From contig NZ_JAOARI010000011.1 of NCBI RefSeq assembly GCF_025210605.1, positions 1 through 64,000 of the forward strand: DNA of 64,000 nucleotides, written 5' to 3'. The notes beneath the pieces are model-generated. The model saw nothing but the letters and a program-made list of their open reading frames with translations, made no database searches and was not told the DNA's origin. The stretch is from Halodesulfovibrio sp. GTDB lineage: Bacteria; Desulfobacterota; Desulfovibrionia; Desulfovibrionales; Desulfovibrionaceae. A program made the translations under genes and the position numbers. Shown here piece after piece: positions 24,088 through 40,120 of this stretch (its first letter is position 1; each line of letters opens with the position of its first letter).

Positions 24088-24316
24088 TATTCTTAGATTT
24101 TCATCGGCTTTTCATTGGGGTTACCACCGCTCAAACTTTTGCTCCTCAACAAGTCACTCAGAATCAATCTATATACTGTTACCCGATGCAAACATTGCTT
24201 CCTACAAAAAGAGGTAGCCCACACCTTCTTTTTAGAAAAAGACATTCTCGCAATACAAAGCAGGAATTCCCTCGAACACGCTTTGATCTCTTTTTTAAAA
24301 TTTTTTATTTTTTTGC

Positions 24317-24345
24317 TTGACGGCATTCTCTCTTTTCCATAAAAG
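24317..24345 (+). promoter_or_regulatory. Promoter of tRNA-Asn copy 3
   Basis: TTGACG, 17 bases, TAAAAG, followed by a leader with CACTGAGGGAAAC. Confidence 0.65.
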
Positions 24346-24383
24346 CTTTTCCGCACTGAGGGAAACACCTCAAGCAAACATAT

Positions 24384-24459
24384 TCCTCGATGGCTCAATA
24401 GGCAGAGCGGGTGACTGTTAATCACTAGGTTGTAGGTTCAAGTCCTACTCGAGGAGCCA
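24384..24459 (+). tRNA. tRNA-Asn(GTT), copy 3
   Basis: Identical to copies 1, 2 and 4 over 76 bases. It starts 411 bases after copy 2. Confidence 0.97.
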
Positions 24460-24467
24460 GATTTCAA

Positions 24468-24497
24468 AGCCTCTTTCGAAAGAAAGAGGCTTTTTTT
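24468..24497 (+). terminator. Terminator of tRNA-Asn copy 3
   Basis: Same hairpin and T run as after the other copies. Confidence 0.9.
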
Positions 24498-24580
24498 GTG
24501 CCTTGACGTAAACTTCAGAAGTACGGAATGCACACTTCTTGTATTTATTTCCACTTTTTTCAAATTTATTGATTTTTTTG

Positions 24581-24609
24581 TTGACGAGCACGAAGCAAAT
24601 CCGTAAACA
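24581..24609 (+). promoter_or_regulatory. Promoter of tRNA-Asn copy 4
   Basis: TTGACG, 17 bases, TAAACA, then the GCGCTGAGGGAAAC leader, closely matching copy 1. Confidence 0.7.
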
Positions 24610-24645
24610 CATTTTCGCGCTGAGGGAAACCGAAGCACACAATAT

Positions 24646-24721
24646 TCCTCGATGGCTCAATAGGCAGAGCGGGTGACTGTTAATCACTAGGTTGTAGGTT
24701 CAAGTCCTACTCGAGGAGCCA
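24646..24721 (+). tRNA. tRNA-Asn(GTT), copy 4
   Basis: Identical to the other three copies. It starts 262 bases after copy 3, the shortest interval in the array. Confidence 0.97.
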
Positions 24722-28311: not shown

Positions 28312-28343
28312 CGACGTGCAGAATTTCTGCACGTCGTTTTTTA
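28312..28343 (+). terminator. Terminator of the ygiQ-like gene
   Basis: CGACGTGCAGA and TCTGCACGTCG form an 11-bp perfect stem with a 3-base loop, followed by six T. Confidence 0.85.
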
Positions 28344-28376: not shown

Positions 28377-30347
28377 TTATTCACGGGAAACATTGTTCAG
28401 CAGCCACTCCACCGTTCCTGAGACAGCCCACCGTTCTTTTCCCGGCATGCTTATAATTTCTTTTTCTGTCCTACTTTCAAGCTGCACTATAAGATGATTT
28501 TCTAATAGCGTTATGCATTCAGGCTCAATTCTCTTTTCGTGTTCTAGCTGCAACATTATTTCTTTTTGCTCCGCAGCGGAAAATTCTTCAAACAATTGCG
28601 CAGCGTAGTCCCTGTCTGTTCTCAGCAACAATATTATAGCAGCCCGCTGAATAGCTACAGGCTCATTGCGTAGCACTGCTACAATCTCTTTTACTGGCAC
28701 AGAAATAATCGGTGCAAACGGCATGTGCACCCTGTCATTCCGACATAATGCTACAACTTGAGCCATATCCTTTGCAGCAATGGCGCGTATCATAAGCCTT
28801 CGTACCAAAGCACTGTCTACAACAAGCGCTCCGGTACTTACTATTGAGCTATTACGGCTTCGCAATAATGCTTTTACCTGCTCGGGATACAACGAAGGTA
28901 ACTTCCCCGCCTCCCGCAAAAAACCGGCGGCTGCTTCTGGCGAAAAACTACTGAGCACTTGTGCTGCATGCGATTCACCCAAGGCAAGCACTGAGGCAAC
29001 AAACTGCTGCGATTCAGACAATACAACTTCAACTCCAGCTCTATGCCCTGCTCGCCGCTCGATAGCCTCCTGTTTTTCAAAAGGCATTTTTTCTACCAGC
29101 GCATACCTTCTGTCCTCTGAAAGTTGGGATAAAATAACTGCTGCTGAAAGGGGGTGCTGACTCATAAGTTCTATGCGTAATGTATCATTATCAAGACGCA
29201 CCAGCTTTTCGATAGCCGACGCATTCATCTCGGCAAATTCCGGTACTAAAATTTCCTGCTTGCCTGTGAGTATTGGAATGATCTCTCCAAGTGCCTTCTC
29301 AGGGAAAACAAGCATCATTGTACCGTTCATTCCATTAGAACCATCTTGATGTCTACCTTCATCACCTACACTCACAGACAACTCACAGACAATGCACGAT
29401 TGATCCAACTCAAAATAGTTTGCGTACTCTGCCTGTTCACTAGATTTACCATGAATTGACTCTATCTCGTAATACGGCGCAAAAGCCCATTCCATTTCAA
29501 GCAACAATAAATGTAGCAGATGTCTCACAACACTCTTGGCAATTGGAAACCCACAAGTCTCTTTTGATTTTTTTTGCTTTGCTATCCTCGATAACAGTAC
29601 ACGCGATGACTCTTGCGTACCCGCAGAATAGAGTGCATGTGCAAGCCCTACTGCGACGTCCCTTTCCAGTCCCACAAAATTCACTCCATCTAATGGGAAC
29701 ATGGAAAAACTCGTTGCAACAGGATGATCCATACGCAGCCAGACATCGAATGGAGCGCGAACAGTCCGCACTGGCGTTACGCTGCACGGACATCCTGTCA
29801 ATTTGCGAAGCCGCTTTGTAGCACCTGATGCAAATTGACTCATAATTTTGTCCAGCACAGGAAATTGTACAGTCTTCCGGTAACGATATTCGAGCAGCTG
29901 TGTAAGCGTACCATTTTTTTGCGCTTCTGCTAGCTGTTCGGGTGCTAGTCCTGCTAACACCCCTTCACTGCCTGAAGGTATAAGCCCGTCACTGGGATCT
30001 GTGCCTGCTTCTGCATCCAGAGAATTTTCAGATTCAAACGGGCGCTTCAACAGCCACTGCATTTCTTCTACGGTCACATCATTTGCTGATGACGGATTTT
30101 CTTCAGCCCCAAACAGCTCAGACACAAGATCACTTTCTACCCCTGTCAGTGATGCCTGCCATGCCTCATCAGACCATGGGTCAAACTGGACTGTTACTTC
30201 AGTACGCTTTGGCACATTACAAGACTTTTGCCGTGCATCCTCTTCAGCCTCTAGAGAACGAGAGTACGAGCCATCACTTGAAGCTTTCGAAGCAGAGTCA
30301 TTTATCTGAAATGGAAGAACTTTTCCCATATTCTTTTTATCAGCCAT
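28377..30347 (-). CDS. FliM-FliG-like fusion protein, orphan from flagellar genes
   Basis: The 656 residues combine parts of two flagellar switch proteins. Residues 1-145 are acidic, low complexity and without clear family. Residues about 150-365 follow the FliM middle (CheC-like) domain: a helix LDKIMSQFASGATKRLRKL, then SVTPVRTVRAPFDVWL, HPVATSFSMFPLDG and, after a linker, SVVRHLLHLLLLEMEWAF with the beta strand MMLVFPEKAL. Residues about 380-435 resemble the FliG middle domain (SQHPLSAAVILSQL against the EHPQ-type motif). Residues about 452-482 and 560-622 look like further FliG-type helical repeats (QRAAIILLL, AAQLFEEFS). I chose the ATG at 30347 (AGGA before it). No flagellar gene is nearby; it is divergent from a DAC-like gene. 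Function unknown. Confidence 0.7.
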   Translation of the reverse strand: MADKKNMGKVLPFQINDSASKASSDGSYSRSLEAEEDARQKSCNVPKRTEVTVQFDPWSDEAWQASLTGVESDLVSELFGAEENPSSANDVTVEEMQWLLKRPFESENSLDAEAGTDPSDGLIPSGSEGVLAGLAPEQLAEAQKNGTLTQLLEYRYRKTVQFPVLDKIMSQFASGATKRLRKLTGCPCSVTPVRTVRAPFDVWLRMDHPVATSFSMFPLDGVNFVGLERDVAVGLAHALYSAGTQESSRVLLSRIAKQKKSKETCGFPIAKSVVRHLLHLLLLEMEWAFAPYYEIESIHGKSSEQAEYANYFELDQSCIVCELSVSVGDEGRHQDGSNGMNGTMMLVFPEKALGEIIPILTGKQEILVPEFAEMNASAIEKLVRLDNDTLRIELMSQHPLSAAVILSQLSEDRRYALVEKMPFEKQEAIERRAGHRAGVEVVLSESQQFVASVLALGESHAAQVLSSFSPEAAAGFLREAGKLPSLYPEQVKALLRSRNSSIVSTGALVVDSALVRRLMIRAIAAKDMAQVVALCRNDRVHMPFAPIISVPVKEIVAVLRNEPVAIQRAAIILLLRTDRDYAAQLFEEFSAAEQKEIMLQLEHEKRIEPECITLLENHLIVQLESRTEKEIISMPGKERWAVSGTVEWLLNNVSRE

Positions 30348-30715
30348 ATATTTTTCCTGAAAATACGGTTCGAGGTGCACTTTTTCATATCTGGAATGCA
30401 AATACGCTGGTTGAGCTTACGTATATCTATACAACAGATTCAATTTTTTGCACTACCCAAGCGATTATATATAGTAATTTAATGGATATATTACGTTCTA
30501 ACGGCACACTATTCCTTGCCCCTTTCCCAACATGCAGATAGTCTGTGAAGTATTATAATTAACACAGCTCCATGGAGCAATTTTAATTAGTTATACTAAA
30601 TTAACTATACATTTCACAATGACGCATTGTCATTACTTGAAATAGATATTCTACAAGTAACTTGCTGGTTTTACACTGCAAAGAATGACGCAAAATCTGT
30701 CGGGAGGATCAAAAA
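30348..30715. promoter_or_regulatory. AT-rich divergent intergenic region with several dyads
   Basis: The 368 bases separate the FliM-FliG-like and DAC-like genes and hold no gene. Three dyads stand out: GCTCCATGGAGC (30567-30578), TAGTTA-N8-TAACTA (30588-30607) and AATGAC-N5-GTCATT (30618-30634). They cluster 80-150 bases upstream of the DAC-like gene, which suggests regulated divergent promoters. I could not fix promoter boxes. Confidence 0.4.
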
Positions 30716-32131
30716 ATGACCATGATGCATACATCCCAGTGGAGAAGGAGTATTTATAATATTCTTGACGGATTGAGCGATGGGTTATCGCACTTTGCCG
30801 GTGCCAGCCGAGTTGCGTTAATTATTTGCCTTGAGCGTAACGAACCTTTTTATATTCTCGATCCGCAAAATTTGCTTGATGGACATCAGCCTCGCCTCAA
30901 AGATCTTTTCAAGAGCTTCCAAGACACAGTTTCGCACAATTTGCGTTCCGAATTTGATCCGGCTAACGATCCACAACTAACGGGACTCATAGCATATGGC
31001 GGCTCGTGCACTACATTGCCGTTTCAAATGTGGTTTACGGAGGAACACCCAGATATCTGTTCCAAAGGACCTACGTTACGCTGGCTGGAATATGCAGCCA
31101 CTCAATTGTGCGCTGATTTCAGCCAAGATGCCGGACTGCGCAACGATACCTCCAGCTATGTACTGCAAGGCTATGCACAACACGCCATCCGCGATTATAT
31201 CATCGATAAACGTAGCGAGGCACTAGGTATGGACACATACCTGCGTATCTATCCAACATTGAATGCAATTTTAGGAATTTCAAATACACGGGAGGAAGGA
31301 GCATGGCCGAGGGGGAAAATAGCCTTTGTTGAACCGCGCCTGTTACAGCACGTCCAGTTTCTTGCATCGTTTCCACGAATGGAGCAGCCACTGCTCGTAA
31401 ACCTCAGGCATTGCAGAAAAACATTGCAAGCTGTAGAAAATACAGACCGGTATCTTATTTCGGATGGCTGCACCCTTGCGGGAATTGCAGCGGGAGAATT
31501 ACCGCCTGGCACTATTGTCGCAACATTCGAGGGAAACCACGGGCTGGTCACTCTGGATGATGAACTTATTTGCAGTTTTGCATCAGGAAATTTTCTTGCT
31601 ACCAACCGCCGCCCGAACCTCGTTCAACTTGAAGAAGCCCTGTTTGAATCCACCGTAACACCAGAGCAGCGGCACAGCCTTTTTCAGTATACAACCCGTG
31701 TTGTAATCCGCGCACGAGAGCGTAAGCATGGTTGCACCCTTGTATTAGACCTTAATACAATCCCCCGTAATATTGCAGGACAGACACTGCAAACCCCGCT
31801 TGATTTAAGCCTGCCGGAAAATATTGACATAGCCTGTTCACTTGCCAAAGTAGACGGCGCATTGCACATCAGCAAGACATCTACCCTGCTGGGTTTTGCC
31901 TGCCTTCTGGATGGTCGAGCTGTCCCCGGAGAAAACAGGGCACGCGGTGCTCGATTTAACTCGGCATTACGATTCACTGCGCTACATAAAAATATTATCG
32001 CTATTGTGGTTTCTTCCGACAGACCTGTTTCAGTAATCCAGCATGGTGTTGAACTTACAGCACAATGCAGCTGGAAACCCATCAGTTACAATTGCACACC
32101 ACCGTTACTCTCAGACTGGATAAACGAATAG
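30716..32131 (+). CDS. Protein with degenerate diadenylate-cyclase (DisA_N-like) domain
   Basis: The 471-residue soluble protein has an N-terminal region without clear family (about 1-200), a middle region (about 225-300) and a C-terminal DAC-like domain (about 325-450). The last part keeps the DGA motif (VDGALHIS, 380-382), the strand FACLLDG, and a match to the nucleotide-site motif in GARFNSAL (411-418). There the canonical RHR of c-di-AMP synthases is R-F-N. After it IIAIVVSSDRPVSVI fits the final strands. Loss of His and the second Arg suggests ligand binding rather than synthesis, as in predicted DACN-type sensor domains, but activity is not excluded. The start follows GGGAGGATC. Divergent from the FliM-FliG-like gene. 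Confidence 0.65.
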   Translation: MTMMHTSQWRRSIYNILDGLSDGLSHFAGASRVALIICLERNEPFYILDPQNLLDGHQPRLKDLFKSFQDTVSHNLRSEFDPANDPQLTGLIAYGGSCTTLPFQMWFTEEHPDICSKGPTLRWLEYAATQLCADFSQDAGLRNDTSSYVLQGYAQHAIRDYIIDKRSEALGMDTYLRIYPTLNAILGISNTREEGAWPRGKIAFVEPRLLQHVQFLASFPRMEQPLLVNLRHCRKTLQAVENTDRYLISDGCTLAGIAAGELPPGTIVATFEGNHGLVTLDDELICSFASGNFLATNRRPNLVQLEEALFESTVTPEQRHSLFQYTTRVVIRARERKHGCTLVLDLNTIPRNIAGQTLQTPLDLSLPENIDIACSLAKVDGALHISKTSTLLGFACLLDGRAVPGENRARGARFNSALRFTALHKNIIAIVVSSDRPVSVIQHGVELTAQCSWKPISYNCTPPLLSDWINE

Positions 32132-32133
32132 CT

Positions 32134-32604
32134 CTATTGAATAGGAACAGCTTGGGATACAAAAGCAAAACCATAGGATGAACCTGTACCGAGCATTATG
32201 CTCTCTACAATGGGTACGTCCACGGCTCTGTCGGCTTCCCATTTAAGAATAAAATTTGCGCCAGACCCACCGGAGTCATCATCAAGGCTAATGACATACC
32301 GTAAGGACTGAAGTGGATTCATGACCGCTGGAAGATCATCATAGCGACGCAATAATTTCCCATCAGTATCAAAAAATTCTAAACTCGTAATGCGGATTGA
32401 CTCTGTCCTACTTGTATTGCGTACGCTTAATGTTGTTGTAACATTTATTTTTGCTTCTTTATTTCCATGATAAATGTACGCGTATGCTGGAACATACAAA
32501 GTTTGCCCATTCTGTCTGGTACGAGCCGAACTATTACTGGGAAATGCTATTGCAGCCACAAAAAACAATATACCTGTAGCCCATACGATACGAAAAGCAC
32601 TCAT
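32134..32604 (-). CDS. DUF3124 family secreted protein
   Basis: This 156-residue protein has a signal peptide (about 1-27) and the DUF3124 signatures LYVPAYAYIYHGNKE, LSVRNTS, FFDTDGKLLRRY and DDSGGSGANFILKW, with SIMLGTGSSYGFAFVSQ at the end. The family is periplasmic and of unknown function, frequent in cyanobacteria and deltaproteobacteria. It converges on the DAC-like gene with only two bases between the stop codons. Confidence 0.85.
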   Translation of the reverse strand: MSAFRIVWATGILFFVAAIAFPSNSSARTRQNGQTLYVPAYAYIYHGNKEAKINVTTTLSVRNTSRTESIRITSLEFFDTDGKLLRRYDDLPAVMNPLQSLRYVISLDDDSGGSGANFILKWEADRAVDVPIVESIMLGTGSSYGFAFVSQAVPIQ

Positions 32605-39457: not shown

Positions 39458-40120
39458 TTATTCATTGTCTTTAAAGACTGCTTCAGGCTCTTTCACATCA
39501 TCTGTGATAATGCCATAAATAGCTTCCAGACGTTTTTTCAGCACAGGCGAAAGCTCTTCCAAACTTTGAGTGCCGTGCTCAACTTCCGGCGGGTCATACA
39601 AGCCTACATGCTTTGCCAGCATTTCTAATGCCTTTAACTTCGAATGCTGCTTTACACGAACTGTCCCACCACGGCTTGTTACCGTTTCCGTAATTTCTGC
39701 AATGGAAGCTGCTTGAGCGCTATTTATATCTTGCGAATTACGCAATGTCAGATGCCCGTCATCCCACGCACAAACATCCTTCAGCGTAGCAAATCCAACC
39801 GCGGCTAATTCTCTGACAACTGCGTCCTGCGTAATTTCCGTACGCTGCGCACGTTGTGCCTGCTTCCTGCTAATCGCCTGCATAATTTCGGGCAGCGCAA
39901 GAAGTCTTGTAGCCGTAGCACCAGCAGATTTCTGGGCATATCCAGCACGGCATGCAGCAAGTCGTCCGTTGTAGTCTAGCAGGTACTCATCAACAAAACG
40001 CCGCTGTTTGACTGAAAGTGTCTTACCTGCACCCTTCTGCTGAACAGCTGGCTTTCGTGCCTTCTTGTTTTCTGCACGATCTTCAGCCGACACGACTTCG
40101 GAACCTTCTTCAGCCATCAC
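39458..40120 (-). CDS. Phage terminase small subunit
   Basis: This 220-residue protein has the Terminase_2/XtmA pattern: a basic N-terminus, then LSVKQRRFVDEYLLDYNGRLAACRAGY as the DNA-binding HTH region, SAGATATRLLALPEIMQAI, and a C-terminal oligomerisation part with KLKALEMLAKHVGLYD. The small subunit recognises phage DNA for packaging and hands it to a large-subunit nuclease. No large subunit follows: a terminator and a long non-coding gap come next. It overlaps the preceding gene by four bases. Confidence 0.85.
   Translation of the reverse strand: MMAEEGSEVVSAEDRAENKKARKPAVQQKGAGKTLSVKQRRFVDEYLLDYNGRLAACRAGYAQKSAGATATRLLALPEIMQAISRKQAQRAQRTEITQDAVVRELAAVGFATLKDVCAWDDGHLTLRNSQDINSAQAASIAEITETVTSRGGTVRVKQHSKLKALEMLAKHVGLYDPPEVEHGTQSLEELSPVLKKRLEAIYGIITDDVKEPEAVFKDNE

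Follow-up and report, generated by a model that had tools for sequence, protein, structure and literature searches.

The hybrid gene and its surroundings

The window analysed here, a 64-kb stretch (64,000 nucleotides) of a Halodesulfovibrio sp. contig, contains a gene for a protein that joins a FliM middle-domain-like region (FliM_M) to three FliG-like segments in the order M1-N-M2 (Table 1). This gene, hereafter referred to as the hybrid, lies between a convergent ygiQ gene and a divergent diadenylate cyclase gene. As a terminator-like palindrome parts it from ygiQ, the hybrid looks like a one-gene transcription unit. The initial annotation had placed the fusion outside any flagellar operon, and indeed no flagellar gene was seen across the 64-kb window, no flagellar neighbour was recognised around the hybrid, and no convincing sigma-28 or sigma-54 promoter site was found upstream of it. 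ygiQ and an EVE gene were close to the hybrid in all 15 contexts examined; in genome G008 these two genes adjoin each other and the hybrid is lacking. No match to phage or defence-system families was obtained.

Table 1. Features of the hybrid gene and the adjoining region (window positions; residue numbers refer to the hybrid protein)
Feature	Position	Strand	Basis or remark
Hybrid gene, FliM_M-FliG(M1-N-M2), 656 aa	28377..30347	-	ORF: ATG 30347, stop 28377
Conserved basic/hydrophobic N-terminal peptide KVLPF, residues 9-13	30309..30323	-	Ortholog alignment
Acidic linker, residues 21-155, low-confidence, little conserved across clades	29883..30287	-	Alignment and model
FliM middle-domain fold, residues ~160-361	29265..29870	-	Profile-profile and fold search
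M1, first FliG_M-like ARM unit, residues 376-438	29034..29222	-	His398-Pro399 of FliM-binding motif invariant
FliG_N-like domain, residues 441-533	28749..29027	-	Best-conserved part of the hybrid
M2, second FliG_M-like unit, residues 545-625	28473..28715	-	HP-motif His gone
Shared upstream region of the divergent hybrid and diadenylate cyclase genes	30348..30715	.	Blocks conserved in six species
Terminator-like palindrome between convergent ygiQ and hybrid	28312..28336	+	
Diadenylate cyclase, DACND-DACNH-DAC (DACND and DACNH sensor domains)	30716-32131	+	

Canonical fliG and fliM are present elsewhere in the same genome (C35 and C37, respectively), together with a second FliMN_C gene, encoding 193 aa (C31), which we read as fliN; PF01052 matches in this genome were confined to C31 and C37. 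Thus, the hybrid is neither the only FliG nor the only FliM of the organism, and with canonical fliG, fliM and fliN intact it is an addition rather than a replacement.

Relationship to FliM and FliG

The FliG-like half of the protein was recognised directly. FliG_M (E=9.9e-12, 45.4 bits) and FliG_N (E=8.2e-8, 33.2 bits) both exceeded the Pfam cut-off of 25, and each was matched by 14/14 hybrid orthologues at E<=0.01, although the FliG_N match of one of them (L039) was below the Pfam cut-off. In profile-profile comparison, hybrid residues 441-623 were collinear with FliG 14-194 (score 122, against 24 for the control), and residues 356-441 aligned to FliG 93-180 (score 42). A PDB profile search likewise returned FliG at residues 545-632 (E 5.5e-7) and 380-438 (E 5.5e-6). 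In a tree of the FliG parts the hybrids formed one clade, separate from the canonical FliGs, on branches too long for a donor to be named. A single-sequence scan of the genome contigs with the hybrid gave no matches.

The FliM-like half was more divergent. In the single-sequence scan of the window protein, residues 161-361 gave a sub-threshold match to NCBIfam FliM (TIGR01397, E=0.0038) and Pfam FliM gave none; among the 14 orthologues, TIGR01397 was matched by eight (best 8.6e-7) and Pfam FliM at E<=0.01 by four. By hhalign, residues 160-361 aligned to FliM 49-230 with a score of 66.6, whereas the best of 40 column-shuffled control alignments scored 22.7; the PDB profile search contained a weak FliM match at residues 163-257 (E 0.028). 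In a Foldseek search of the PDB with the AlphaFold model of the hybrid, which is of modest confidence (mean pLDDT 60.0), FliM chains and middle domains ranked first (TM by target length 0.71-0.74 for 4gc8) and FliG entries next. Because a FliM profile comparison made with the second carrier genus alone (see below) scored 17.7, below its control maximum of 22.1, we made a second structure model, of a relative from that genus, and the FliM fold was recovered, FliM again being the top match (7dm9, TM 0.82 by target length); this model was built on the same mixed alignment and is not fully independent of the first. It also matched FliG_M of the T. maritima FliM-FliG complex with 37-39% identity over ~60 columns, at weak E-values.

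These results, taken together, bear out the initial annotation in its central point, the presence of FliM-like and FliG-like domains in one protein. Its description of the C-terminal half as FliG-like helical repeats stands in part: the region is FliG-like, but it has the order M1-N-M2 instead of simple repeats and lacks FliG_C. The residues near 398, which had been likened to the EHPQ motif, are its equivalent: HPLSAAVILSQL occupies the place of the FliG_M EHPQ motif in M1, with the HP invariant in 14/14 aligned orthologues and HPQT present in three of four sequences of the second genus. The corresponding His of M2 is lost. On the FliM side, the FliG-binding GGxG loop is degenerate, and in five relatives the loop bears a long insert.

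The domains that would complete a switch protein are missing. FliMN_C (SpoA) was found in none of the 14 orthologues by domain scan, and FliG_C, the torque domain, at the proper C-terminal place in none of them; the sole FliG_C match over the cut-off, in L032, sits on the M1 ARM unit and was rejected. Absence of FliG_C and SpoA argues against a complete second rotary switch. Canonical FliM of the same genome begins MNKILAQDEVDALLRGL, and by inspection no CheY-binding peptide like the canonical ILAQDEVDALL is present at the N-terminus of the hybrid. The KVLPF-type peptide, in which K9 is invariant and V10 and L11 are at least 90% conserved among the 14 aligned orthologues, stands in its place. 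The linker that follows is probably disordered, judging from the model, in which the N-terminal quarter (residues 1-158) has pLDDT values <50. The N-terminus is hydrophilic, with no membrane anchor or export signal on inspection.

Because the defining domains are missing, the hybrid is a member of neither FliM nor FliG, and it failed the equivalog cut-offs of both (16.4 against 219.6 bits for FliM TIGR01397 and 19.7 against 226.7 bits for FliG TIGR00207). It has in common with FliM (TIGR01397/PF02154) the middle-domain fold and the order of its elements, and with FliG (TIGR00207/PF14842, PF14841, PF01706) the collinear N and M domains, from which it differs by the extra M unit before N. A CheC-like fold is common to FliM_M and CheC/FliY, but FliM outranked those two in each of the fold searches. 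MgtE_N scored below its cut-off in the window protein (21.3 against 25.9 bits). The same ARM-like type of superhelix occurs in the MgtE_N/MotE-FlgY proteins, and ARM-like domains also build the periplasmic E-ring protein FlgY (PMC13023049, PMC11870540). FlgY-type proteins, however, are short, possess a long helix but no FliM_M, and are either secreted or anchored in the membrane; the hybrid is otherwise unlike them.

Distribution and rate of change

We mapped the hybrid across the Desulfovibrionales, as had been suggested, in a survey covering one phylum. It occurs in 10/10 Halodesulfovibrio genomes and in 6/8 genomes of one related genus, which includes Desulfovibrio sp. A2; one of these six is a fragment on a short contig, and the two genomes with no match are a 75%-complete assembly and one in ~820 contigs. 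Profile scanning covered 297 genomes from the order and 297 from the phylum, with no more than three candidates scored per genome; it revealed no hybrid in any other genus and gave only canonical FliG and MgtE there. Proteins of ~486 residues from genus g40, whose weak matches made them look like short relatives, are MgtE. Among the genomes covered, full-length orthologues were thus confined to Halodesulfovibrio and one related genus, and related flagellated genera lack the hybrid. In the FliM tree both carrier genera fall in one ten-row clade together with hybrid-less genera, a topology compatible with one gain followed by several losses as well as with a more complex history. In one genome (G100) the gene is split in two frames (L043, G100:C6, 8729-11500, covering profile positions 1-333 and 339-674), by either a real frameshift or a sequencing error.

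The hybrid is under purifying selection, with dN/dS of ~0.08-0.14 where synonymous sites were not fully saturated, values that are rough since dS is high (1.4-2.5). It nevertheless evolves much faster than the motor proteins: identity between the two Halodesulfovibrio clades is ~28%, against 93% for canonical FliM, a divergence not expected of a subunit fitted closely into a ring. In within-clade pairs, its dN exceeded the dN of ygiQ and of the cyclase by a factor of ~1.4 to 4.7. Conservation is uneven along the protein, identities within the close clade being 92% for the FliG_N-like domain, 75% for M1, 68% for FliM_M and 60% for M2.

Possible roles of the hybrid

In canonical motors, FliG_N binds FliF, FliG_M binds FliM via EHPQ and FliG_C meets the stators; the FliM_M-FliG_M contact is the core of the flagellar switch. 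The hybrid keeps the kinds of element that bind FliF and FliM and is missing FliG_C and the FliN-like domain, the pattern expected of a torque-less regulator or assembly inhibitor that docks on the rotor. We therefore favour, tentatively, the reading that it serves the normal flagellar motor as a torque-less accessory protein in the cytosol, located on the MS/C-ring and tuning switching or assembly. Docking on the MS/C-ring would be through the FliG_N-like domain, which would contact either the C-terminus of FliF or the FliG lattice. M1, whose HP motif is intact, would bind FliM_M, either that of the hybrid or that of canonical FliM. Hybrid units might then fill rotor positions without contacting stators or carrying FliN, and could thereby shift the switching bias, reduce motor speed or govern how the C-ring assembles.

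Retention of the FliG_N-like core, the M1 HP motif and the FliM_M fold counts for this reading, which it fits at least as well as it fits repurposing of the protein. Against it count the degenerate GGxG loop, the lack of a recognised flagellar neighbour and of a convincing flagellar-type promoter, the ~28% identity between clades and the flagellated relatives that have no hybrid; because the protein changes fast, lies in a non-flagellar position and has no flagellar-type promoter, our confidence falls somewhat short of an even chance. If the accessory reading holds, the hybrid would work like the lineage-restricted C-ring regulators CheO and MotV. CheO binds FliM/FliY (PMC9665402) and MotV interacts genetically with FliG/FliM (PMC8789113). 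Together with YcgR, CheO and MotV/ZomB are possible functional analogues; no homology of CheO or MotV to switch proteins is stated in the passages covered, whereas the hybrid is built of switch-protein domains.

It would be more surprising, and we consider it unlikely, if this torque-less FliM-FliG chimera were built into the rotor itself or formed a small ring of its own on it; if so, it would be a kind of rotor subunit not described before, tuning the motor from within. A literature search that omitted most subscription journals turned up no description of a natural FliM-FliG fusion. The hybrid possibly represents a new class of motor regulator, and a natural single-chain FliM_M-FliG that lacks the torque and FliN-binding domains, present beside the normal parts, offers a ready-made probe of rotor assembly and tuning.

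The initial annotation had raised repurposing of the switch proteins for polarity, secretion or another machine. In such a case the hybrid would work off the flagellum. Together, the ARM-like superhelix and the FliM_M fold would build a polar, envelope or signalling scaffold, for which the conserved N-terminal peptide would act as a recruiting tag. Its location away from flagellar genes and near ygiQ/EVE, its fast divergence, its degenerate GGxG loop and the conservation of a KVLPF-type peptide on a disordered linker would all suit this. However, no gene cluster of partners for another machine accompanies it, conservation is strongest in the FliG_N-like core and the HP motif, and canonical FliM is kept in 3/3 carrier genomes checked. 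As nothing points to a non-flagellar system and motor-binding elements are retained, we regard a repurposed scaffold as doubtful.

Another role at the motor, quite improbable in our estimation, is that of an assembly checkpoint, in which a soluble mimic of FliM_M:FliG would bind free FliM/FliG or FlhF/FlhG and limit C-ring assembly or polar flagellar number. FlhG is linked to the C-ring in polar flagellates, and a FliM_M-FliG architecture without ring-building or torque domains would be apt for such a protein, but the present data do not set this role apart from that of a motor accessory.

The genomic context brings the diadenylate cyclase to mind as a partner, with the hybrid serving as a c-di-AMP-linked effector. 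The two genes are adjacent in all ten Halodesulfovibrio contexts, the window included, and the region between them is partly conserved in six of the ten. DACND, on the other hand, was found in 83/199 genomes of the family, most of them lacking the hybrid; the second carrier genus yielded none. Furthermore, ygiQ and the cyclase gene adjoin each other without the hybrid in genus g8, so that an old gene order explains the adjacency. The distribution of DACND and the older ygiQ-cyclase neighbourhood weaken the case for the cyclase as a functional partner, and we rate such a link as very unlikely. Least credible of all is a fusion of duplicated pieces of fliM and fliG that has no function or is decaying, an idea which the rapid divergence and the split frame of G100 might suggest but which is disfavoured by the low dN/dS, a frame that is open in 10/10 Halodesulfovibrio genomes and the conservation of the FliG_N-like core.

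Several minor observations were made in the window. A block at ~30507-30541 (TATCTGCATGTTGG.AAAGGGGCAAGG), between the cyclase and hybrid genes, is conserved in six Halodesulfovibrio species. Between the cyclase and EVE genes lies one for a DUF3124 protein that probably carries a signal peptide (32134-32604, minus strand). A terminase small subunit gene (Terminase_2, E=2.1e-31; 39458-40120, minus strand) lies amid ordinary genes and is a possible phage remnant. Finally, two adjacent ORFs at 24093-24687 (minus strand) start with an identical MINSHPLCLLSHRGI, which suggests a short repeated DNA segment.
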